Of a DNA stretch of 64,000 nt, positions 31,817 through 45,960 are shown piece after piece (position 1 is the stretch's first letter; each line of letters begins with the position of its first letter). The notes below the pieces were generated by a model, which searched no databases, was not told the DNA's origin, and worked only from the letters and a program-made list of their open reading frames with translations. Both the position numbers and the translations under genes were made by a program. This stretch comes from Selenomonadales bacterium (GTDB lineage: Bacteria > Bacillota > UBA994). Location of the stretch: the NCBI GenBank assembly GCA_018335585.1, contig JAGXRZ010000041.1, positions 1 through 64,000 of the forward strand, in the 5' to 3' direction.

Positions 31817-32089
31817 ATGACCGCTCCATTAGTTGATAATGCAAAGGTAATGGCCAAAGGCCAGATTACCCTGCCCAAAGACATCCGCTCCAAGCTTCGC
31901 CTTGCCAGCGGCGACCGTGTTACGCTGATTTGCGAAGGTGACCAGGTCATTCTCATGAACTCAGCTCTGTATGCTATGAAAATGCTACAGAGAGAAATGC
32001 GAGGTGAGGCAGGCAAGGCTGGACTCCTTACCGATGACGACGTACTTGAACTTGTGAAGGAAGTCCGTGCGGAGATTGAGGGGCTGTGA
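31817..32089 (+). CDS. AbrB/SpoVT-type antitoxin
   Basis: A 90-aa protein with an N-terminal SpoVT-AbrB swapped-hairpin DNA-binding domain (VMAKGQITLPKDIRSKLRLASGDRVTLICEGDQV, split over residues 11-46) and an acidic helical tail (LTDDDVLELVKEVRAEIEGL) that would block the toxin. The ATG 31817 follows TAAGGAGG. The stop codon overlaps the PIN toxin start by 4 bases. It is likely antitoxin and autorepressor. Confidence 0.88.
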   Translation: MTAPLVDNAKVMAKGQITLPKDIRSKLRLASGDRVTLICEGDQVILMNSALYAMKMLQREMRGEAGKAGLLTDDDVLELVKEVRAEIEGL

Positions 32090-32499
32090 GAGTATTGATC
32101 GACACCAATATCTTGGTCTCGGCTGCTTTGAGTGGCGATGGCGCACCATACCAGGCATACATCAAAGCGGTTACGCACCCGAATCGCGGCATCGTCTGCG
32201 ACCAAAACGTCGATGAAATTCGCCGAGTATACAACCGAAAATTCCCCCACAAAGTCCAAGCGCTCGAACGCTTTTTGGCTCTCGCCCTCACAGTCCTCGA
32301 AGTAGTGCCAACTCCTGTTGTTGACGTGCCCGATGAGGCCCTTCTAAGAGATGCAAGCGATAGGCCGATCCTCAGGGCAGCAATTACTGCAAGGGCCGAT
32401 GTGCTTGTAACAGGGGACAGAGACTTCCTGCAATCTGGTATAACGAGTCCAAAGATCATGACCGCTACTGAGTTTCTGCAAATGGACCAGCTGCCTTAG
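32086..32499 (+). CDS. PIN-domain toxin (VapC-like ribonuclease)
   Basis: A 137-aa PIN-domain protein of the putative toxin (COG1569-like) type. It starts with LIDTNILVSAAL (first catalytic Asp and Asn) and carries the acidic residues in DRPILRAAITARADVLVTGDRDFL. It is expected to be a Mg-dependent endoribonuclease neutralised by the co-encoded AbrB-type protein. The start is GTG 32086 overlapping the antitoxin stop. Such a pair may stabilise the region or respond to stress. Confidence 0.88.
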   Translation: MRVLIDTNILVSAALSGDGAPYQAYIKAVTHPNRGIVCDQNVDEIRRVYNRKFPHKVQALERFLALALTVLEVVPTPVVDVPDEALLRDASDRPILRAAITARADVLVTGDRDFLQSGITSPKIMTATEFLQMDQLP

Positions 32500-33423: not shown

Positions 33424-33460
33424 AAAGCCCCTGTCACGCTTTAAAGCTGACAGGGGCTTT
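33424..33460. terminator. Bidirectional terminator between acetamidase and nrfA
   Basis: A perfect 13-bp stem AAAGCCCCTGTCA/TGACAGGGGCTTT with an 11-base loop lies between the convergent stops. Short T-runs on both strands make it a terminator for both genes. Confidence 0.85.
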
Positions 33461-33468
33461 GCGATTTC

Positions 33469-34734
33469 CTATCGTCCGATTGCTCTGTTTGTGAGCGTCG
33501 CCATTTCGCCTACGAGCCGTTGGGCCTCGCCTAGAATGCGCCTGCCTTCACGTGCATTATGAAAACCGGTGCTGTTCTCTACGAGGAACCAGTCGAGCAT
33601 CAGTTGGGCTTGGCGGTGCTTGGTTTGTGCCTGGGCAATGAGCGCTGCATTCGCGGTCGGGTTGCGGCGCGCGTCGCGCAGGGCGTTAATCGCCTGCTCG
33701 AGATCTGCACCTATCGCATTGGCGGTAGTTCTAAGCTCGCCTTGTAGCTTTTCTGTTCTAGCCCTAAGTGCGGTCATGTCCATCCCATGACACCGCTGAC
33801 ACGATGCTTCCATATGTTTTAGCGGGCTTGCCAGCCAGTGTTGGGTGTACGTGCGGCCTTGGGCATCTTTTACTTGCGGCATATGACAGTCGGTGCAAGT
33901 CAGTCGGGCCTCCCAGTGCACGCTCCCCTGGAAGAATTCAAACTCAGGATGCTGAATCTTGTGCACACCGGCACCAGTACGCGGATGCGTCCAGTCGGAG
34001 AAGTTTGCGGCATCCTTGTGCGCCAAAGCATCCTCGGGCCTAAAACCACGGCTCCACGGGAAAACAATCTTGTTTGTGACGCCGGGGCCCTCAAAGTAGT
34101 ACTCCGAGTGACACTGCGCGCAAACGAGCGACTTCATGTCGAAGTCGGCGAGGGTGCGGCCTTGCGACTCTATAGCCGCAATCAGCCAGGGACGGGTTAT
34201 CGTCAGCGCAAAGTCTGGAGTATTGGGGTCGTGGCAGTCGATGCAGGATACCGGATGATTAGTCTTCGTTGCTGCCTCACTCCAATACATGGTGTCAAGC
34301 TCTCGCTGCCCGTACTTAGCTACCAGTGCGGGGTAGTCGGCCGACTTGCAGCCCCAGCACACTCCGCCAAACTTCGGACGCCCGATGTTAATTGTGTCCT
34401 CGATGGTGTAAAGGTGCCCGCGCGACTCGCGGAAATCGAACCAGAAGCCAAACCCGTGGTACATGGCTCGCATAAAGGGGTACTTCGTTAGCTTCTGATA
34501 GGGGACCGACCCGCCGTGTGCTGTCGGCTCCATTTCCAGCGTGCGCATGTAGCTTGCTACCTGCGCGGGGAAGCGGTCCTGCCAATAGAGCGTCGCCGCG
34601 GGCGTCAGCGCTTGGGCAGGCGGCTCGGGCTGTGCGACCGTCTGCAAGGTGACGTACCTCGCCCCTATAGCCACGGCTACGACTATTGCCGCCGTGAGGA
34701 TGTAGAACATCCATGATGGGCGACTTGTGTCCAT
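33469..34734 (-). CDS. nrfA: Ammonia-forming cytochrome c nitrite reductase NrfA
   Basis: A 421-aa pentaheme enzyme that reduces nitrite to ammonium with six electrons. A single N-terminal hydrophobic segment (residues 10-28) anchors it outside the membrane. The active-site heme motif is CWGCK (about residue 123), followed by four CxxCH motifs: CIDCH, CAQCH, CTDCH, CQRCH. Conserved GRPKFGGVCWGCKSADYPAL and HPEFEFFQGSVHWEARLTC support the assignment. No nrfH (tetraheme quinol oxidase) gene is present, so the electron donor is unknown. It is the last gene of the ccm/res operon, consistent with dedicated maturation of its unusual CxxCK heme. Confidence 0.95.
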   Translation of the reverse strand: MDTSRPSWMFYILTAAIVVAVAIGARYVTLQTVAQPEPPAQALTPAATLYWQDRFPAQVASYMRTLEMEPTAHGGSVPYQKLTKYPFMRAMYHGFGFWFDFRESRGHLYTIEDTINIGRPKFGGVCWGCKSADYPALVAKYGQRELDTMYWSEAATKTNHPVSCIDCHDPNTPDFALTITRPWLIAAIESQGRTLADFDMKSLVCAQCHSEYYFEGPGVTNKIVFPWSRGFRPEDALAHKDAANFSDWTHPRTGAGVHKIQHPEFEFFQGSVHWEARLTCTDCHMPQVKDAQGRTYTQHWLASPLKHMEASCQRCHGMDMTALRARTEKLQGELRTTANAIGADLEQAINALRDARRNPTANAALIAQAQTKHRQAQLMLDWFLVENSTGFHNAREGRRILGEAQRLVGEMATLTNRAIGR

Positions 34735-34780
34735 TTTCTTTCACCTCCTTCTTCGAGTGATAATTGGGTGCGCGCCTAGT

Positions 34781-35656
34781 CTAGCCGAACGCATGAATGC
34801 CGGGCAGCAGCCACGCCACGCCAACCCAGGTAAAGAGCATGGCTACCCAGCCGAGCGCCACTAGCGCTATGGCGCGCATGCCGGTCCAGCCGCGCGTAAT
34901 GCGCGCGTGCAGGTATACGGCAAAAACAAACCAAGTTATGAGCGACCACATTTCCTTTGGGTCCCACCCCCAATAGCGTCCCCACGATATGTCTGCCCAG
35001 ATGGCGCCGCTGATGATCATCGCTGTTTGAAACAGGAACCCAAACCCCGCCGCCCGATAGATATACTCGTCGAGTGAGTCGGCGCTTGGCAGCATGCGCA
35101 CGAGCGGTGACCCCGCGCGCAAAACAAGGCGCGCAAGCCAGATAGCAGCGCCGGCAAAGGCCACGGTAAATCCGGCGTAGCCAAGCACAGAAGTGGCGAC
35201 ATGGATAGACAGCCAGTCCGATTGCAGAACGGGGGGCAGCGGGCGATGCGCCCGGCTCACCACGATGCCCGGGATAATGCTCGGAATAACCGTGAGGTAG
35301 GAGAGATACAGCATCATAAGTGGCGTTAGAAAAGCGCCCACTGCATAGTAACTCTCTTTAAGGCGCCACTCCGTCCACAGGTAAACGAGTGCACTGCCCC
35401 AAATAAAGAGGTTACCGAACTCGAAGTGCCCTACAAATGGCAACCGCTGCACGTTGTAGGCCCTAAGCAGGATAAACGCCGATTGCACGGCAAAGGCGAT
35501 TTTCAGTACGGCCGAGGCAAAGCTCCCCCACTCGCTTTTCCCCTGCATGTAAATCCAGTAACTAATGGTCGCCGCTCCATATAGAATGGCCGCAAGTACA
35601 AACAAGGCGTTTTCTATCCACATGGCTAGCGGAGAGACTTCTATTAAAATCGGCAT
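34781..35656 (-). CDS. ccsA: Cytochrome c biogenesis protein CcsA/ResC
   Basis: A 291-aa membrane protein with about eight hydrophobic segments and the tryptophan-rich WGRYWGWDPKEMWSLITWFVF heme-handling motif (WWD domain), split over residues 222-242. With ResB it forms the System II cytochrome c synthase that attaches heme to CxxCH outside the membrane. Conserved histidines flank the WWD segment. It lies 2 bases after resB and 46 bases before nrfA, so it may be dedicated to NrfA. Confidence 0.9.
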   Translation of the reverse strand: MPILIEVSPLAMWIENALFVLAAILYGAATISYWIYMQGKSEWGSFASAVLKIAFAVQSAFILLRAYNVQRLPFVGHFEFGNLFIWGSALVYLWTEWRLKESYYAVGAFLTPLMMLYLSYLTVIPSIIPGIVVSRAHRPLPPVLQSDWLSIHVATSVLGYAGFTVAFAGAAIWLARLVLRAGSPLVRMLPSADSLDEYIYRAAGFGFLFQTAMIISGAIWADISWGRYWGWDPKEMWSLITWFVFAVYLHARITRGWTGMRAIALVALGWVAMLFTWVGVAWLLPGIHAFG

Positions 35657-35658
35657 CG

Positions 35659-36957
35659 CTATTTCGCATCCCCTCTCTGCTTGAGGCGCTCCTCTAGGAG
35701 ATCTAATGTCGGGTTAAGGTTCAATTTGCTGCGGTACCTGCTGCCGCCAAGCAGAAGAGTGCCATCTTCCTGCTGCAGGGCATAGATGCGCAGGGGTGAG
35801 ACGAAAAAGCTTAAGTAAAGGCCGAGAAGTAGCAGCAGAGAACCCACAAAGAGGTACGGGCGACCGAGATTCTTGCTTATGGAGTACACCGCGGCAAGGT
35901 CAAACCCGGTCATCATAACTTCGACACGGCCGTCTGGGGTATCGAACACCTGCGCCTTGTTTAGCGGCAGGAAGACGGGGCCTTGCGGTTGGTTGTTGCG
36001 CATCAGTGCCCCGATAGCAACCGGGCGCTCCGGCCTGTAGTCTATATTAAAGGGCGTCCCATCGGCGCGCATTGAAAAATGCGGGAAAAAGTCTTGCAGG
36101 CGAATGTGTAAAGTCCTCTTTGCATCAAGGTACACCCTGTCGCCGGCTAGAAAGCGACTAGAGCCCACTTCACCGGTTTCAATGTCTGTCAGGCGAAGTA
36201 CCGGAAAATGCAGAAACGTGGAGTGGTAGATGGTGTTGCCGAGAAAGCGCACGGGGTAGTTTATGGACACCGTGTCATTGGCGAGCACCTTGCCGTCACG
36301 GCGCACCGTAACGTCGCTGTAAACGCGGGGCCGTATGCGCGGGTCTTCGGCCTGCACCATGCGAATATCGGTAATCTCGACGCTAAAGCCGCCCTCTTGC
36401 ACCGTGAACTGACTGCCGACCCAGCCGCCATTCTGAACGTCGTAGCCGGTAACAACGCCGTATACTGCGCCAAAAAGAATAACCAGCAGGCTTACGTGAC
36501 TAATCCATGAGCCAAAGTAACCCAGTCTACCCCGCTCGCCGCAGATTACAGTCCCGGAAGGGCCTTCTTGTGCCGTCACGCGCATCCCCATGGACTTTAA
36601 GGCCGCGCTGGCGACAGTTACAGGGTCTGTGCTACCTAGCAGCCTTACTGCGCGGCTGTTCGGCAGGCGGCTAATGTCTGCGGCACCAAGCGTACGCTCT
36701 GTCTTAAATGCCAGGCGATAGAGCGGCCCTAGGCGCTGCAACGAACACAACAGCAGGTTAAGCGAGAGGAGAGCTAGCAGTGTTAGATACCACCACGAGC
36801 TGTACACGCGCGCAATCGCCTGCTCCATATCTAGCAACGTGGCGCCTGCCGAAACTGCCGCGACCAGTAGCAGGAGCACCAGGCCAAATTGCATCGAGCT
36901 AAAGAACTTAATAGTTTGTCTGAGGGGGCTTTCAGGCGCGACATGCGGTCCTCTCAA
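35659..36957 (-). CDS. resB: Cytochrome c biogenesis protein ResB/Ccs1
   Basis: A 432-aa System II synthase subunit. Three N-terminal membrane segments (about residues 20-40, 60-80 and 150-170) are followed by a large extracytoplasmic domain and a final membrane helix (LFVGSLLLLLGLYLSFFVSP). Typical ResB motifs are LRQTIKFFSSMQFGLVLLLL and SWISHVSLLVILFGAVYG with a conserved His. I place the start at TTG 36957 just after the ccmE stop; no ATG is available and a longer frame overlaps ccmE to 37005. It acts with CcsA. Confidence 0.88.
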   Translation of the reverse strand: MRGPHVAPESPLRQTIKFFSSMQFGLVLLLLVAAVSAGATLLDMEQAIARVYSSWWYLTLLALLSLNLLLCSLQRLGPLYRLAFKTERTLGAADISRLPNSRAVRLLGSTDPVTVASAALKSMGMRVTAQEGPSGTVICGERGRLGYFGSWISHVSLLVILFGAVYGVVTGYDVQNGGWVGSQFTVQEGGFSVEITDIRMVQAEDPRIRPRVYSDVTVRRDGKVLANDTVSINYPVRFLGNTIYHSTFLHFPVLRLTDIETGEVGSSRFLAGDRVYLDAKRTLHIRLQDFFPHFSMRADGTPFNIDYRPERPVAIGALMRNNQPQGPVFLPLNKAQVFDTPDGRVEVMMTGFDLAAVYSISKNLGRPYLFVGSLLLLLGLYLSFFVSPLRIYALQQEDGTLLLGGSRYRSKLNLNPTLDLLEERLKQRGDAK

Positions 36958-36961
36958 CGTA

Positions 36962-37330
36962 CTACCTACCGCCTTCCTGCATAAACCTAGTCGGGCACTT
37001 AACAAGAATGTTGCGCGCCACGAAGACTTCGCCGTCGACGCGCCCGGAGACTACAATATATTCGGCCGTGAACAGGTTCGGCGGGACATTGCCGCGGTGT
37101 GACACGGTTAGTGTCTTTCCTGCCTTATCGGTTACGGCAAAAGTAAACGATGCCGCATCCGCTGTTTGCAGCGACCCGCTGACAGCTACGCCCTTAACCT
37201 GGGCCGGACGCCCTCCTAGCTCGGCTTCGGCAAATGTAATGTAGGAGCTAAAGGCTGTTTGTGCAGTCATAAAAATGCCTGCGCCGAAGACTATAATTAG
37301 CGCAAGCAAAACGACCTTGTCATACCTCAT
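36962..37330 (-). CDS. ccmE: Heme chaperone CcmE, Cys-type
   Basis: A 122-aa membrane-anchored OB-fold heme chaperone. One N-terminal helix (VVLLALIIVFGAGIFMTAQ) precedes the beta-barrel (VKGVAVSGSLQ, VSHRGNVPPNLF, EYIVVSGRVDGEVFVARNILVK). The heme-binding position is ILVKCPTRF: a cysteine replaces the histidine of HxxxY CcmE, as in the CxxxY variant known from Desulfovibrio and archaea, and the last residue here is Phe rather than Tyr. The ATG 37330 overlaps the end of ccmD. Confidence 0.85.
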   Translation of the reverse strand: MRYDKVVLLALIIVFGAGIFMTAQTAFSSYITFAEAELGGRPAQVKGVAVSGSLQTADAASFTFAVTDKAGKTLTVSHRGNVPPNLFTAEYIVVSGRVDGEVFVARNILVKCPTRFMQEGGR

Positions 37331-37436
37331 CGCGCCGTTCCACCTCTCTTAGCTTTAAATCGATGCGCAGCATATAAAGAAACAATCCAAGCCAAATCGC
37401 TAGCGTCGCCGCTAACACAAATACGAGCTCTCCCAA
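37320..37436 (-). CDS. ccmD: CcmD-like small membrane protein
   Basis: A 38-codon gene fills the gap between ccmC and ccmE. It encodes GELVFVLAATLAIWLGLFLY as a single membrane helix followed by a charged tail (LRIDLKLREVERRDEV), the layout of CcmD, which assists release of heme-loaded CcmE from CcmABC. The start is TTG 37436, 2 bases after the ccmC stop, with GGGAGAGAGG upstream; the stop overlaps ccmE. It is easily missed by gene callers. Confidence 0.75.
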   Translation of the reverse strand: MGELVFVLAATLAIWLGLFLYMLRIDLKLREVERRDEV

Positions 37437-37438
37437 CT

Positions 37439-38104
37439 TTAGGCACCTCTCTCCCTAGTTAAGCGGTCGTGCAAAGCGAGGACACGGACTTGCAGCCTAT
37501 AGGCCCAGGCGTAGATCGCAGTGAAGCCGGCTATCGAGGCGAGAAACACTACGAGCACTTCACGGCTCATAATACTTACCCTTTCTTCGACACCGCCTAA
37601 ATTAGGGTGTAGCGACGGGAAAACCCGCGGCACCACAAACACTAAGAAGGGTACTGTAAGAAAAGCCAACACGGCATAAACGGCGGAAAGCCTTGCCCGT
37701 AGCTCGGCATCGCTGAGCGCACCGCGCAAGATAAAGTAAGCAGCATAGATCATAAGCAGTATGGCTATAGACGTTTGGCGCGGGTCCCAGTTCCAGTACA
37801 TGCCCCATGCGGCCCGGCTCCAGATTGCTCCTGTTACCGTAGCAAGAACACAAAACACCATGCCGAGCTCGGCGTTCACTAATGCGCGCATGTCTAAGTT
37901 TAGGTCTCGCTTTTGCAGGTAACGAATGGATTGCACTGTCGCCATAAGAAAGGCCAGCACGGCAACCCAGGCTGTCGGCACATGGTATACAATTAGCCGC
38001 GCGGTTTCGCCGGTTGCGCCAAACCCGGCGATTGCGGGGATATAGAGAAATGAGGCAACGATAACCGCCGCCATCCACACGCCTAAAGCCACTTGCCATA
38101 TCAA
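37439..38104 (-). CDS. ccmC: Heme exporter subunit CcmC
   Basis: A 221-aa membrane protein with six hydrophobic segments and the WWD-type heme motif RAAWGMYWNWDPRQTS (near residues 117-132). Conserved histidine in VYHVPTAWVA lies before it. CcmC presents heme to CcmE on the outer face of the membrane. It follows ccmB by 46 bases and directly precedes ccmD. Confidence 0.9.
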   Translation of the reverse strand: MIWQVALGVWMAAVIVASFLYIPAIAGFGATGETARLIVYHVPTAWVAVLAFLMATVQSIRYLQKRDLNLDMRALVNAELGMVFCVLATVTGAIWSRAAWGMYWNWDPRQTSIAILLMIYAAYFILRGALSDAELRARLSAVYAVLAFLTVPFLVFVVPRVFPSLHPNLGGVEERVSIMSREVLVVFLASIAGFTAIYAWAYRLQVRVLALHDRLTRERGA

Positions 38105-38150
38105 CTGACTCGCCTCCTCTTGCTCAGGTTTGCTCAGGGTTTGCTGCAGG

Positions 38151-38831
38151 CTAATCCCAAATATGTTCGAACAAAAGAAATGATGCCGCCACGATGATGC
38201 CGTTATAGAAGAAGAGGAACCATAGGTCGGGCATCACGCCTCTAGCAGCTCCTCCGCCTAAAGTTAGGCGTGTTCCGTTAATGGCGCTAATAAGTAGAGG
38301 GATGACTATCGGGAAAGACAACACGGTCATAAGTGCCCCCTTTACGGCAGCGCGGGCGGCAATCGCCGCGATAATCGTGCCACCGCCAACTAACCCGAGG
38401 GCTCCGAGAAATACAATCGCAAGAAATCCAAGCGGGTGCGCGACCGTAACGCCGGCGAAAACAAGAAAGAGCGGGACTATTAGTGCCGTTAAGCTTAGCA
38501 GTAGCGCCGCGTTAAACAAGTACTTCCCCAGGAGAACCGGTTCTGGGTCGGCGGCGAGCCTAAGTGCGAGAATAGTGCCGGTCTCTTCTTCTTGCGCAAA
38601 TGACCTCGACAAACCGGTCATCGAAGAAAAGAAGAGAATGACCCACAACATCGAGGCGGCCACGTCGGGGTCGGCGAGTCTACCGCCCATGGAAAAGCTT
38701 ACTGCTATTAACGTAGTTACGGCAAAGACCACTTGGGCGCTGTAGGCATAGCGACAGCGGAACTCAACCTGCATGTCCTTGTGCAACACAGCCAGTGCGC
38801 GCCTAAGCAAAGACGAGGGTTTGGTCTCCAT
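38151..38831 (-). CDS. ccmB: Heme exporter subunit CcmB
   Basis: A 226-aa ABC permease with six hydrophobic segments. Motifs typical of CcmB include HKDMQVEFR near the start and LSFPIVIPLLISAI late in the protein. With CcmA it forms the ABC module that drives release of holo-CcmE. I start it at ATG 38831 after GGGAGGAG; it overlaps ccmA by 29 bases. A longer frame to 38861 has no site. Confidence 0.88.
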   Translation of the reverse strand: METKPSSLLRRALAVLHKDMQVEFRCRYAYSAQVVFAVTTLIAVSFSMGGRLADPDVAASMLWVILFFSSMTGLSRSFAQEEETGTILALRLAADPEPVLLGKYLFNAALLLSLTALIVPLFLVFAGVTVAHPLGFLAIVFLGALGLVGGGTIIAAIAARAAVKGALMTVLSFPIVIPLLISAINGTRLTLGGGAARGVMPDLWFLFFYNGIIVAASFLLFEHIWD

Positions 38832-39423
38832 AGCGGAGCTCCTCCCGTTCATTTGTGGCAATAACGACTATCCCCCGGCTACGCTGCTGCTCTACAATGT
38901 CCCACACCAAGGCCACCCCTGCCGCATCTAGGTTACTGGTCGGCTCGTCAAGGAGCAGGATGTGCGGTCGATGCCAGAGGGCACAAGCATACTTCATGCG
39001 CTGCTTCATGCCGGCAGAAAATGTGCGGAGCAGCTCGTGCCCGCGCACCTTAAGGCCCACCCGTTCTAGGACTCCTCGCGCCTCGTCGGCGGAGTAGGCA
39101 AAGCCGCGCACGGCCGAAAAGAACGCCAGATTCTCTGCCGCCGTCAGGTCGTCGTAGAGCCTTAGGTCAGGCGAAACAAGACCAAGCGCACGCCTTCTTT
39201 CGCCGGGAGACAGGGCGCGGCCGTGCAAATACACATCTACTTTTCCGGTGGTGGAGGGGATGAGCCCGCACAACAAGTGCAAGAATGTGGTCTTGCCGGA
39301 ACCATTGGGGCCATGGACCACAAGTGCCGTTCGGTCAGGAATAGTGAGGCTTATATCCGCAAAGAGCGGGCGTCGGCTATAGGCCTTGCCGAGGTTTCTG
39401 ACCTCGATGCGGTTGCCGAGCAC
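38803..39423 (-). CDS. ccmA: Heme exporter ATP-binding subunit CcmA
   Basis: A 206-aa ABC ATPase: Walker A GPNGSGKTTFL (near residue 37), a signature-like FSAGMKQRMKYACAL (the usual LSGGQ degenerated as is common in CcmA), and Walker B ILLLDEPTSNLD. It is the first gene of the ccmABCDE-resB-ccsA-nrfA operon. The start is placed at GTG 39423, where homology begins; GGAGGG lies 15 bases upstream, so the true start may differ by a few codons. Confidence 0.88.
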   Translation of the reverse strand: MLGNRIEVRNLGKAYSRRPLFADISLTIPDRTALVVHGPNGSGKTTFLHLLCGLIPSTTGKVDVYLHGRALSPGERRRALGLVSPDLRLYDDLTAAENLAFFSAVRGFAYSADEARGVLERVGLKVRGHELLRTFSAGMKQRMKYACALWHRPHILLLDEPTSNLDAAGVALVWDIVEQQRSRGIVVIATNEREELRYGDQTLVFA

Positions 39424-39516: not shown

Positions 39517-39543
39517 AGGGACGGAGCTTAGTCCTCCGTCCCT
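39517..39543 (-). repeat. Dispersed GCTCCGTCCC hairpin, copy 3 (terminator-like)
   Basis: A perfect 10-bp stem AGGGACGGAG/CTCCGTCCCT with loop CTTAGTC overlaps the stop codon of the GGDEF/HD-GYP gene and is followed by Ts on the minus strand. It is near-identical to the copy at 41602 and shares its core with those at 2977 and 10609. Confidence 0.75.
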
Positions 39544-41651: not shown

Positions 41652-42992
41652 TTACTTCCAGAGGCCGAAGTAGCGCAGCGCGCCGCCTACAAGGATGAAC
41701 AGCGTGCCGAACACCGCGACATACTTGCCTAGGAAATCCCACCACAGCGGCATAGGGGTTGCCGCACCGTGGTTAACCTCTTTGCGGATTAGGCTGCTGC
41801 CATAGACCCAGAAAATGACTATCATCATGATGAGCGTCCCTACGGGCATGACGATGGCCGAGGTGAAGCGCATCCAGCTAGTGAACCACGCTTGGTTGAG
41901 CGCCAACGGCAGCCCCATTAACAGGGAGAGCGCGCCGGTGGCCAGGGTGGATTTTTTGCGATCCCATTTGAAGGCATCCATCATCGGCTCAACGGCCGAT
42001 TCAAAGAGAGAAACGGCCGAGGTAATGGCAGCGAAGGCTACCAACAGAAAGAAGAGTGTGCCAAACAGGGCACCGGCAGGCATCTGTGCAAAGAGACCCG
42101 GCAAAGTGACGAACAGGAGCGGAATGCCCGAGTTCGGTGCCACGCCGAAGGCAAACGCGGTCGGGAACACGATGAGAGCGGCTAATATGGCAGCTCCGGT
42201 ATCGAACACCGCAGTGTACAAGGCGGCCTGCGGTATGTCGGTTTCTTTGGGCAAATAACTGCCGTAGATGACGAGGGTACAGCCGAGTAGACTAAGCGAG
42301 AAGAGTGCTTGGGCGAGAGCATTAAACCACGTCAGGGGGTTGCCGAGGTGGCTGAAATCAGGTGTGAAGATAAAACGCAATCCTTCGTCGGCACCAGGCA
42401 AAGTCAAGGCACGCACGGCAAGGACAACCAAAATTCCGAACAACGCAGGCAGTAAAATATTGTTGGCGGGTTCCAGTCCTTTTTTGACGCCGAAATACAC
42501 AATGGCCGTTGTTAAGACAATGGCCAGGATGTGCCACGGCACAGACCCAGACGACCCGGCGAACGAGTTAAAGGCTGCCGCCAAGTTGTGTCCGGCAAAG
42601 CCGCGCAAGGCAAAACCGACGTAGTTGAACACCCAACCCACCACGATCATGTAAAAGACCGTGACGGCTCCGGTAGCGAGTACCGGTAGCAACCCCACCC
42701 ATTGCCCGCCGGCTAGCTTGCGACTTGCGAATGCCTCTTTAACGGCGCTGATCGGACCTTTACCATAGACGCGCCCAAGCGCAAACTCGCCCATGAGTGC
42801 CACAACACCGATAAGCGCGACGATCAGCACATAAATAAGCAGAAATGCACTGCCGCCGTAGGTTCCCATACGCCACGGGAACATCCAAATGTTGCCGAGT
42901 CCAATTGCCGAGCCGGCGCTAGCTAGGATAAAAGCCAGCTTGCCTGACCAAAGCTCTCGACCCGGCTGCGTAGTAGGTGTCTTGTCACTCAT
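41652..42992 (-). CDS. Sodium-dependent transporter, NSS/SNF family
   Basis: A 446-aa Na+-coupled amino-acid transporter. The family signature WSGKLAFILASAGSAIGLGNIWMFPW covers the first membrane segment (split here near residues 15-40), with unwound helix 1, and 11 to 12 hydrophobic segments follow as in LeuT-type bacterial homologues. Likely substrates are neutral or aromatic amino acids; the exact one is unknown. It ends with a short FGLWK tail. The ATG 42992 has GGGAGG 11 nt upstream. A structured-looking leader with a second Shine-Dalgarno-like element precedes it. Confidence 0.92.
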   Translation of the reverse strand: MSDKTPTTQPGRELWSGKLAFILASAGSAIGLGNIWMFPWRMGTYGGSAFLLIYVLIVALIGVVALMGEFALGRVYGKGPISAVKEAFASRKLAGGQWVGLLPVLATGAVTVFYMIVVGWVFNYVGFALRGFAGHNLAAAFNSFAGSSGSVPWHILAIVLTTAIVYFGVKKGLEPANNILLPALFGILVVLAVRALTLPGADEGLRFIFTPDFSHLGNPLTWFNALAQALFSLSLLGCTLVIYGSYLPKETDIPQAALYTAVFDTGAAILAALIVFPTAFAFGVAPNSGIPLLFVTLPGLFAQMPAGALFGTLFFLLVAFAAITSAVSLFESAVEPMMDAFKWDRKKSTLATGALSLLMGLPLALNQAWFTSWMRFTSAIVMPVGTLIMMIVIFWVYGSSLIRKEVNHGAATPMPLWWDFLGKYVAVFGTLFILVGGALRYFGLWK

Positions 42993-42998
42993 AATTAA

Positions 42999-43118
42999 TC
43001 AATCCTCCCAAACTGCTTCCTTTGCTTCCGTTCGTGTCGTGCCTGCTAACGATACAGAGCTTAGAGACGTCGCCGTTTTTCTGCGGTCGCTCACCTCCTC
43101 CTAGGACGATGTCCAAAA
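42999..43118 (-). promoter_or_regulatory. Leader of the NSS gene with orphan Shine-Dalgarno/short ORF
   Basis: The 5' leader contains CTAGGAGGAGGTGA, a near-perfect ribosome-binding sequence about 105 bases before the NSS start, and a 31-codon open frame (GTG 43094 to TGA 42999). The GTG is only 2 bases from the AGGAGG, too close for normal initiation, and the peptide is hydrophilic (RRKTATSLSSVSLAGTTRTE), unlike the hydrophobic MetS small subunits of NSS transporters. A CCG/CGG hairpin lies inside. It may be a leader peptide, an upstream ORF or a structured RNA; I do not recognise a known riboswitch. Confidence 0.35.
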
Positions 43119-43173
43119 ATTATGTATATGGTCGATATCTTAGCGCAAAAACACAGTGCAAGTCAACAGAATT

Positions 43174-43210
43174 CTTAAATAAAATAAGAGCCCGGATAAA
43201 TCCGAGCTCT
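43174..43210 (-). terminator. Terminator of the AGCS symporter gene
   Basis: A hairpin of GAGCCCGGAT and ATCCGAGCTC (one mismatch, 2-base loop) with a T-rich tract following on the minus strand lies about 28 bases past the stop. Confidence 0.7.
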
Positions 43211-43237
43211 CGGCGAGGGACTACGAAACTCCGCAGC

Positions 43238-44671
43238 TTATTTTTGCTTGTAGTAGGTGGGGTTTTCGTCGTAAGGCACGTAGCGCTCGCCTGCAAAGTA
43301 GGACTTCGTGATGGCCGCAAAGGGACCGGTGAGCGCTATCACGGCGATGATGTTGGGAACAGCCATGAAAGCATTGAGGATGTCGGCGATAGCCCACACC
43401 GGCACCACGCCAAAGGAGCCTACGTAAAGTGACGGCAGGAAGAGTGCACGGTAGACCATGTTAGACTTTGGCCCAACCAGGTACTCCAGGCATTTCTCAC
43501 CGTAGACCGACCAGCCTAGCATGGTGGTGTAAGCAAAGATGAGTATCCCGGTGGCTGCGACGGCATTCCCAATCACAGGCCCAATAAAGGACGACGAGAA
43601 CGCGTACATAAACGTAGCCATTGCTGTCTGCCCCTGCGTCCATGCACCGCTGGTGAGAACTGCGAGTGCGACGGCTGTGCAGACTACGTGGGTGTCAAGC
43701 AGAACTTCGATAGCTCCCCAGAAACCTTGCCTGACCGGATGGTTGGTCTCTGCGGTGGCATGGGCAATGGGAGCGGAGCCGAGACCCGCTTCGTTGGAAA
43801 AGATACCGCGCATCAGGCCGTACCGTATGGCTGAGGCGATGGCCGCACCCGCGAAACCGCCCACGGCACCCTGAGTCGTAAATGCTCCGACAAAGATGCG
43901 GCTGAAAGCTTCCGGGATTAAGGTGATATTTTGAATGGCGACTAATGCGCAGCCTATGACCATCGCAATCGCCATAAAGGGAACTGCCCGTTCCGCAACC
44001 TTACCTACGCGCTTAATGCCGCCAATAATGACAAGGCCGACTAGTATCATCAAAGCGATGCCCGACACAGGGCGCGGCACGTTAAAGGCACGCTCCATGG
44101 CACCGGCCACATTGTTAGCCTGCACCAAGTTACCTATGCCAAAGGCCGCTATCGAACCGGCAATACAAAAGATTACCGCAAGCCACTTCCAGCCGAGGCC
44201 CTTTTCTATGTATTTCATAGGACCGCCGATTATCAGGCCGTTTTTGCTGACTTCACGGTAGTGAACTGCCAGTACAATTTCGGCAAACTTGGTGGTTATG
44301 CCAAAGAAGCCGACCATCCACATCCAGAAGACAGCACCGGGCCCCCCAAAAAGAATGGCGGTTGTGGTGCCCACTAGGTTACCCACGCCCATGGTGGCTG
44401 CCGCCGCGGTGGAGAAGGCCTGGAAGGGTGTAATGTCTCCTTTACCTAGCTTTTCTTGTTTCTTAAATATCTTGCCGACCGTACTGCTGTAGTAGGCCCC
44501 AAACCTGCTGACCTGAAACCAGCCTGTCCTCACCGACAGGTATAGCCCACACAAGCCTAGCAGAGCCCAAGTCGGCGGACCCCAAACTATGCGCCCGATC
44601 TGTTGCAGCATTGCAGTGATTTCTGCGTAGGTCATAAATGACTGCCTCCTTGTTTTTAAGTTTAAGAACAC
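43238..44671 (-). CDS. Alanine/glycine:cation symporter (AGCS family)
   Basis: A 477-aa Na+-coupled symporter of the AGCS (AlsT/DagA) family. It shows the typical N-terminal GPPTWALLGLCGLYLSVRTGW-like segment, TPFQAFSTAAAATMGVGNLVG (substrate/cation-binding helix), GIFSNEAGLGSAPIAHAT, and the late TMLGWSVYGEKCLEYL. About ten hydrophobic segments are present. It imports alanine or glycine with Na+. It has its own promoter (44774-44801) and terminator and is thus separately regulated from the NSS gene. Confidence 0.93.
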   Translation of the reverse strand: MFLNLKTRRQSFMTYAEITAMLQQIGRIVWGPPTWALLGLCGLYLSVRTGWFQVSRFGAYYSSTVGKIFKKQEKLGKGDITPFQAFSTAAAATMGVGNLVGTTTAILFGGPGAVFWMWMVGFFGITTKFAEIVLAVHYREVSKNGLIIGGPMKYIEKGLGWKWLAVIFCIAGSIAAFGIGNLVQANNVAGAMERAFNVPRPVSGIALMILVGLVIIGGIKRVGKVAERAVPFMAIAMVIGCALVAIQNITLIPEAFSRIFVGAFTTQGAVGGFAGAAIASAIRYGLMRGIFSNEAGLGSAPIAHATAETNHPVRQGFWGAIEVLLDTHVVCTAVALAVLTSGAWTQGQTAMATFMYAFSSSFIGPVIGNAVAATGILIFAYTTMLGWSVYGEKCLEYLVGPKSNMVYRALFLPSLYVGSFGVVPVWAIADILNAFMAVPNIIAVIALTGPFAAITKSYFAGERYVPYDENPTYYKQK

Positions 44672-44773
44672 TTAAAGGCAAGAGCTGCATGCATCTATGT
44701 TTGCGCTCACTTTCCCTATAGCCCACTCTCCCCTCGTCTAAGGTGTGCAGGCGTCGTTCATGCTGACACTACA

Positions 44774-44801
44774 ATACTAATGCATATCAGATATTTGTCA
44801 A
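44774..44801 (-). promoter_or_regulatory. Promoter of the AGCS symporter gene
   Basis: On the minus strand, TTGACA (44801-44796) and TAGTAT (44779-44774) are separated by 16 bases. The leader is about 100 bases long and contains an AT-rich inverted repeat (TTTAAGT/ACTTAAA) close to the ribosome-binding site AAGGAGG. I found no glycine riboswitch motif. Confidence 0.6.
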
Positions 44802-44910
44802 TAGTTTGCATGTCTGCATGTTCAATCTTTTTGAGGGCACGTGCAGCAAATCGGCATTAATCTCCAAATTCATCTATTTTTCGCCACAGTTCGACAGGCC
44901 ATCGACTCTA

Positions 44911-45960
44911 TTAGTGGCGGCCGCTGCTCGCTTTCAGTCTCTCAACAATGCCCGTTGCCTGGTCTGACACAAGAAACGCCAGCGTCGTCTCCGGCACTAG
45001 CTGGGGCAGGGCGGCAAAGTCGCCCTCCCGCAAGGCTTGACGGACGAGCGAGGCGGAAATGGCTCTCCCACCCTGCTCTAGGCGCGATATTTCGAGGAGT
45101 TCCATGTTGTGGCTCACTAAGGTCTCGCGCAGCACCTGATTGTAAATGGCGGTGACCGGCGAGTAAGGTTCCGTGCCGACAAAGCGCGTCCTTACCCGAA
45201 GTGCCGGCGCTATATGCGCGGCATACAAGGTGGCGTCTATACTTGCCCCGGCCCGCGCATGCGCAGTTTCTTCCTCGCTAAAGTAACTGGGGAAAGTAGC
45301 GATTGAAACGGCGTAGGGCCCGGTGGGGAGAACCGTCACATTCTCAAATTGACGCGTGCCTTGCCTGACTAGTTCGAGCCTCACAGCAAAAGGGAACACC
45401 GACTTGTCTTCTTCTACAACCAACAGAAAGACGCGGTCGCATCTTTCTGCGGCTGCTTTTACTAAGTGCGCGTGCCCTAGTGTAAAGGGATTGCAGTTCA
45501 TTACCAGCCCGCCTACGAGGCCGCCCTGCATGGCGGCTTGACTGCCAGCAACAGCCCTAAGCTGCGCCAAGTAATCCGCAAAAGATGGGTAGCCGCTCTC
45601 TAGCAGTGCTGCCCATTTTGTCTTGACCAACGTGCGAAACCCGAGGCTGGCAAAAAGATGCGCCTGCACAGGCGTGGTGTAGATAAAGACACGTGTGTGC
45701 CCGGCCCTGTGGGCGATTAGCATCAGGTGGTGTATAAGCTTGCCTGACAAGCCCTCTCCCTGTAGCGAGGGGCTTACGGCTAAACACTGGAGCACATTGC
45801 CCTTTAACGAGCCTGTCGCCACGATATCTCCTGCTACCCGTATCTCCGTAGTTACATCACTACCTGCGTCGTAGCGCAAGCCAAACTGCGCAAGGAAACG
45901 CTCGACCGCGCGCTTATCATGGCTCTCTATGACTTCGTAAGGAGTCCACACGCTGCTCAC
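44911..45960 (-). CDS. citC: Citrate lyase ligase CitC
   Basis: A 349-aa [citrate (pro-3S)-lyase] ligase. It acetylates the phosphoribosyl-dephospho-CoA arm of the citrate lyase ACP using acetate and ATP, activating the enzyme. An N-terminal GNAT-like domain (residues about 10-120, with VSPSLQGEGLSGKLIHHL) precedes a nucleotidyltransferase domain with MNCNPFTLGHAHLV (HxGH-type motif near 160) and SASLVRQAL near the end. It is last in the citrate operon and overlaps citG by 4 bases (GTGA). Confidence 0.93.
   Translation of the reverse strand: MSSVWTPYEVIESHDKRAVERFLAQFGLRYDAGSDVTTEIRVAGDIVATGSLKGNVLQCLAVSPSLQGEGLSGKLIHHLMLIAHRAGHTRVFIYTTPVQAHLFASLGFRTLVKTKWAALLESGYPSFADYLAQLRAVAGSQAAMQGGLVGGLVMNCNPFTLGHAHLVKAAAERCDRVFLLVVEEDKSVFPFAVRLELVRQGTRQFENVTVLPTGPYAVSIATFPSYFSEEETAHARAGASIDATLYAAHIAPALRVRTRFVGTEPYSPVTAIYNQVLRETLVSHNMELLEISRLEQGGRAISASLVRQALREGDFAALPQLVPETTLAFLVSDQATGIVERLKASSGRH

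Follow-up and report, generated by a model that had tools for sequence, protein, structure and literature searches.

How does a bacterium that carries the heme-export and heme-chaperone half of one cytochrome c maturation system attach heme to its cytochromes when the synthase of that system is not found in its genome? The question is raised by a 64,000-nucleotide window of DNA from a Selenomonadales bacterium of the phylum Bacillota (assembly GCA_018335585.1, contig JAGXRZ010000041.1, positions 1 to 64,000 of the forward strand). Textbooks present Systems I and II of cytochrome c maturation as independent solutions that differ in their heme routes, yet an operon in the window joins ccmABCDE of System I to resB and ccsA, which encode the synthase of System II, and to the nitrite reductase gene nrfA. 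An earlier annotation made from the letters alone (here, the sequence-only reading) had described this arrangement, and we find all of the genes on the minus strand where it had placed them, each with profile matches. We think it probable that the operon is a self-contained maturation unit of mixed origin in which CcmE hands heme to ResB-CcsA.

The operon consists of eight tandem minus-strand genes that span 39423 to 33469, in the order ccmA, ccmB, ccmC, a ccmD-like gene, ccmE, resB, ccsA and nrfA; as judged from the sequence and from profile searches, neighbours are separated by no more than 46 nt and several overlap. The gene that opens the conserved ccmABC(D)E-resB-ccsA run, ccmA (38803..39423, GTG start), encodes the ATPase of a heme ABC exporter (TIGR01189, 1.7e-31, its 109.5 bits lying below the cut-off of 131.6), and ccmB (38151..38831; PF03379, 2.1e-19), which overlaps the end of ccmA, encodes the membrane subunit. 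The product of ccmC (37439..38104; TIGR01191, 2.3e-29) is a WWD heme-handling protein (WGMYWNWDPRQTS) that loads CcmE, and the ccmD-like gene (37320..37436, TTG start) specifies a membrane peptide of 38 residues that matches TIGR04391, CcmD_alt, above cut-off (9e-9). Recognised from PF03100 (1.6e-14) and from alignments, CcmE (36962..37330) is a heme chaperone of the cysteine type, a feature that the sequence-only reading had not mentioned; its motif KCPTRF (CPTRF) carries Cys112 and ends in Phe rather than Tyr, a rare variant with four examples on record (PMC3601427). The two subunits of the System II synthase are encoded by resB (35659..36957, TTG start; PF05140, 4.9e-40), whose predicted model has a predicted local distance difference test score (pLDDT) of 93.5, and by a ccsA of the CcsB/ResC type (34781..35656; TIGR03144, 2.6e-56, above cut-off), whose model (pLDDT 89.7) has CcsBA (7s9y) as its nearest solved fold. 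Finally, nrfA (33469..34734; PF02335, 8.3e-102) encodes a predicted pentaheme nitrite reductase of the CXXCK type with, by motif reading, one CWGCK and four CXXCH motifs.

The source genome is a 2.34-Mb draft in 69 contigs, estimated to be 96% complete, and profile searches of the whole of it returned no match to CcmF_C and none to CcmH (PF03918), so that the System I synthase is missing, as had been proposed. PF01578, the family to which CcmC, CcmF and CcsA all belong, is represented in the genome by just two proteins, the operon's own CcmC and CcsA. ResB is likewise present in a single copy, as is CcsA; no second ccsBA lies elsewhere in the genome, a point that the sequence-only reading had left to be checked, and the hybrid stands. 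We considered whether a divergent CcmF had been missed and rejected this, with PF01578 finding CcmC and CcsA alone. Because this family catches even the very divergent CcmF of a relative (G005, described below), yet has no third member here, it is very unlikely that the genome conceals a CcmF.

The order ccmA-B-C-(D)-E-resB-ccsA is present in 13 genomes from two families of Bacillota, the source's own and the family (f69, hereafter the Dethiobacter family) that holds the Dethiobacter metagenome-assembled genome (MAG) L040. Hybrids in the source's family are the source genome, G003, G004, G006 and G007, and those in the Dethiobacter family are G108, G219, G243, G289 and G372; four MAGs from the CROMO site (L038-L041), titled Dethiobacter sp. 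or Clostridium sp., were found through similarity of CcmC in a survey in which the closest 80 of 535 CcmC loci were read, and one of them, L040, is the same genome as G219 and is counted once. At L125, L126 and L128 a contig end truncates the beginning of the operon or a gene is masked by the choice of reading frame. A survey of other genomes, proposed when the operon was first described, thus recovers the gene order in 12 more, and this recurrence means that it is the product neither of chance nor of misassembly. Profile searches detected CcmF_C in none of the 13 hybrid genomes, which are drafts and MAGs, and CcmH (PF03918) in none of them either.

The survey of CcmF covers one phylum. In a sample of 399 of its genomes, 83 carry CcmE and 70 of these 83 also carry CcmF. 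The 13 CcmE-bearing genomes in which CcmF was not detected comprise ten of the hybrids together with G248, G302 and G271; G248 and G302, where the contigs are short, may be incomplete. We note separately that G271 (L130), which is 96% complete, has CcmA, CcmB, CcmC and CcmE and no detected CcmF, with no ResB or CcsA beside its ccm genes. Within the source's family there are, besides the five hybrids, one genome of the CcmF type (G005) and two (G001 and G002) in which neither CcmE nor NrfA was found, nor, in G002, ResB. The order in G005 (L118, 5531-10827) is nrfA-ccmABC-ccmE-ccmF, with CcmF occupying the position that ResB-CcsA takes in the hybrids. This CcmF, of 594 aa, scores under the CcmF_C cut-off and is caught by PF01578, and the CcmE of the same genome, of 112 aa, was missed by the Pfam search. 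Of the thiol-reducing arm of System II (CcdA/ResA), the source genome has a CcdA-like protein, but so do G001 and G002, which in addition show no multiheme cytochrome. In another genome, G022 (L022), a 610-aa frame at 6234-8063 matches both CcmA and CcmB and is probably a CcmA-CcmB fusion; CcmF lies elsewhere in that genome.

Each half of the operon groups the hybrids together. In trees that included 30 ordinary System II pairs and 40 rows labelled as CcmF-type, all 13 hybrids form one clade for CcsA (support of 100 in the Shimodaira-Hasegawa-like approximate likelihood ratio test), for ResB (100) and for CcmC (99); these are quick trees, and in a few of the CcmF-type rows CcmF is not on the same stretch. 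Every gene tested (ccmA, ccmB, ccmC, ccmE, resB, ccsA and nrfA, with ccmD left out) is under purifying selection, the ratio of nonsynonymous to synonymous substitution rates (dN/dS) being 0.02-0.43 for the ccm genes and 0.05-0.14 for resB and ccsA, and 0.02-0.13 in well-diverged pairs. CcmA, CcmB, CcmC and CcmE are therefore not relics. Between G003 (L033) and G007 (L030), which are assigned to different genera, ccmC-ccmE-resB-ccsA are near-identical (dS 0.04-0.14) and ccmB is at a dS of 0.39, whereas the flanking ccmA and nrfA are far diverged (dS 2.3 and 1.2, respectively). This mosaic looks like what recent recombination, or the transfer of a block spanning parts of both halves, would produce, and a block holding parts of both systems thus seems to have moved between genera.

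The synthase subunits have the residues expected of System II, namely the WWD motif, two periplasmic His (P-His) and two transmembrane His (TM-His). In a residue survey, all 13 hybrids retain ResB TM-His154, CcsA TM-His250, CcsA P-His152 and P-His288 and the WWD motif. Alignment shows the same for the WWD motif and both periplasmic His of CcmC, and the Cys of CcmE is kept across the hybrids. There are also residues specific to the hybrids. His77 and His137 of CcsA, both outside the membrane by model topology, occur in every hybrid but rarely or never at the matching positions of ordinary System II proteins; the same holds for His245 of ResB, on a strand of the beta domain placed outside the membrane, where Gln is found in 28 of the 30 proteins of ordinary System II; and His78 of CcmE or its equivalent is found in 11 of the 13 hybrids (not in G108 or G289), with Tyr in most CcmF-type relatives. 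Three Trp (270, 277 and 282) in the last helix of CcsA are also found only in the hybrids. Sites confined to one clade also turn up in a control clade of six ordinary proteins, though none of these sites is His or Trp in CcsA, and we therefore regard the hybrid-specific His as a clue rather than as proof.

How might these parts work together? CcmC and the CcmD-like peptide would bring heme to the outer face of the membrane and load it onto CcmE through Cys112, after which ATP-driven CcmAB would release holo-CcmE. ResB-CcsA, taking the place of CcmF, would then accept the heme of holo-CcmE at its outer site, formed by the WWD motif and the two periplasmic His. The TM-His pair would hold a heme that serves as reductant for the incoming heme, as has been proposed for CcmF, or that can still be passed outward as in ordinary System II, and ResB-CcsA would attach heme to CXXCH motifs and also to CXXCK in genomes in which no multiheme cytochrome other than NrfA was found. 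To our knowledge the single job of CcmABCD and CcmE is the loading and release of holo-CcmE, and the single acceptor of heme from CcmE is CcmF; since the hybrids have ResB-CcsA instead of CcmF, hand-off to ResB-CcsA is the simplest account. We infer this hand-off, and a role for the transmembrane heme, from gene content, conservation, the shared clade, selection and residues. We also advance, tentatively, the possibility that ResB-CcsA has been turned from a heme exporter into a CcmF-like acceptor that serves both CXXCH and CXXCK, with its transmembrane heme as a reductant and new, outward-facing His of CcsA, ResB and CcmE as the interface for transfer.

Several points weigh against this proposal. 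We know of no transfer of heme from CcmE to CcsBA. ResB-CcsA retains, by its residues, all the hallmarks of an autonomous System II synthase and could act alone; loss of the heme-channel His would have argued strongly for hand-off and was not seen in any of the hybrids. The hybrid-specific residues may reflect mere ancestry, given that the hybrids form one clade with a long stem. Moreover, reading by position against the published CcmF (PMC10663686), the two Trp that block the channel of CcmF have not both been newly gained in hybrid CcsA: the site of E. coli CcmF W216 is Phe in the hybrids, and at that of W253 most CcsA proteins of ordinary Bacillota systems have Trp as well. CcmF itself, however, retains a heme within the membrane, for which the proposed role is reduction of the heme that CcmE delivers (PMC10663686), and the retained TM-His are therefore neutral between the models. 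The sequence-only reading holds in part. Its suggestion that CcmE passes heme to ResB-CcsA gains weight from conservation, co-inheritance and replacement of the synthase, and its second model, discussed below, is not supported.

An alternative that draws on the same retained residues is that two heme routes feed one synthase, with ResB-CcsA exporting and attaching heme by itself and CcmABCDE adding chaperone-bound heme when heme is scarce. We consider this unlikely. In its favour are the four System II His and the suggestion that System I works at lower heme concentrations than System II (PMC9616876). Several Dethiobacter-family operons also lie beside genes of heme synthesis: at L040, L126, L127 and L129 the hybrid operon is often directly before hemA, a gene for a HemX-like PF01578 protein, one for a siroheme-type dehydrogenase and hemC (the names hemA, HemX-like and hemC are our own reading of the sequences). 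It would, however, be unusual for one active site to be fed by two heme routes. As an observation in its own right, the hemA-hemX-hemC adjacency links heme synthesis with heme attachment in the Dethiobacter family.

It is less probable still that ResB-CcsA carries out all of the maturation while CcmABCDE exports or buffers heme for some other purpose, the operon being shared for the sake of regulation. The full set of System II synthase residues would allow this, and no interaction between Ccm proteins and ResB or CcsA is known to us. Set against it are the fact that the only acceptor known for CcmE is a synthase, the finding that each half of the operon forms one clade and that the halves seem to move together, and the presence of CcmF in relatives at the very position that ResB-CcsA occupies here.

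The sequence-only reading had offered, as its second model, a ResB-CcsA lyase devoted to the CXXCK heme of NrfA, in which case another system would attach the remaining hemes. Adjacency lends this some appeal, with nrfA adjoining the hybrid operon in 6 of the 13 genomes (three times downstream and three times in divergent orientation), and in Wolinella the System II protein NrfI is dedicated to CXXCK (PMC12285233). The source genome has no other synthase, however, and the hybrid is not confined to genomes with NrfA, since none was found in G108 or G289; in the Dethiobacter family nrfA is not adjacent to the hybrid operon. Hybrids without NrfA, and a linkage to nrfA that varies, point to a general synthase rather than to one restricted to CXXCK. 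Furthermore, G219, G243 and G372 each have 10-19 multiheme matches to PF14522, a weak search that failed to pass even the window's own NrfA, and they lack CcmF; ResB is present in one copy each in G219 and G243 (the ResB sample omitted G289 and G372). The ResB-CcsA pair in such genomes must therefore serve ordinary CXXCH motifs as well. Within the source's family this weak search by family returned no multiheme protein besides NrfA, and among the at least 100 places at which the source genome has the CXXCH pattern, the five paired places that were checked are not multiheme genes. With NrfA apparently the sole multiheme protein, ResB-CcsA would there have to attach heme to both CXXCK and CXXCH. 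The claim of a dedicated lyase is contradicted by this distribution, and we regard it as highly improbable. Loss of an ordinary System I ccmF to an assembly gap, conceivable for one fragmented draft, is the least probable account of all, for CcmF is lacking from 13 of 13 hybrid assemblies (9 of the 10 with a stated value being 95-99% complete) and is seen in 70 other CcmE-bearing genomes, and PF01578, which catches even the divergent CcmF of G005, finds no third member in the source genome.

For the cultured relative Dethiobacter alkaliphilus, 31 multiheme cytochromes are predicted and many have been detected in proteomes, in a report that makes no mention of maturation genes (PMC10376724). 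Its strain AHT1T probably carries the hybrid operon. We note in addition that the window's NrfA (33469-34734) has a hydrophobic N-terminal segment and no nrfH alongside, and that another NrfA, in G372 (L140), has a tetraheme gene beside it.

The operon appears to be delimited at both ends. Directly past nrfA an inverted repeat, AAAGCCCCTGTCA...TGACAGGGGCTTT (33424..33460, minus strand), was read in the sequence as a terminator-like end; its loop exceeds the limit of the consensus scan, and it is therefore unlisted there. A terminator-like hairpin (39517..39543, minus strand) lies between ccmA and an upstream GGDEF/HD gene and thus sets the operon apart from that gene. Nearby, a gene for a MazE-type antitoxin followed by one for a PIN-domain protein (31817-32499, plus strand) forms a probable toxin-antitoxin pair, and at 41655-45960 on the minus strand an SNF-family sodium symporter, a sodium:alanine symporter and a citrate lyase ligase are encoded in a row, which suggests sodium-coupled uptake and use of citrate.

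Among known systems, System I* of archaea and sulfate reducers is similar in having CcmABC, a CcmD-like peptide, a Cys-type CcmE with CPxxY/F and no CcmH, the absence of CcmH being by itself allowed in System I*. It differs in that CcmF is its synthase, whereas the hybrid has no CcmF and has ResB-CcsA in that place. With System I proper the hybrid shares CcmABC and CcmE but neither CcmF nor CcmH. With System II (ResB-ResC or CcsB-CcsA, fused as CcsBA in Helicobacter) it shares the WWD motif, the two P-His, the TM-His pair and the fold of 7s9y; the ordinary form, however, occurs without CcmABCDE, and the hybrids add clade-specific residues that include three His. The nrfHAIJ cluster of Wolinella likewise places a System II-type synthase, NrfI, beside an nrfA with a CXXCK site (PMC12285233), but NrfI is one of several synthases there, whereas the hybrid has an unfused sole pair, with CcmABCDE and without nrfH. 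E. coli, with NrfEFG, also uses the Ccm exporter and CcmE for NrfA (PMC3601427), but the hybrid lacks a lyase of the NrfE/CcmF type.

The hybrid is thus a full member of neither System I nor System II. Its parts are known; the conserved, CcmF-free combination appears, from the open literature that we searched (subscription papers lying outside that search), to be undescribed. The departure from the textbook division that had been proposed for this locus is borne out, with a mixed set in 13 genomes of anaerobic, mostly uncultured Bacillota for which the either/or split fails. That a System I loader and a System II synthase form a conserved and apparently mobile operon shows that the parts of the two systems are modular. 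The hybrid offers a natural test of whether any synthase but CcmF can receive heme from CcmE, and it bears both on the role of the transmembrane heme and on how, with no dedicated NrfI, a System II synthase can attach heme to the CXXCK motif of NrfA.

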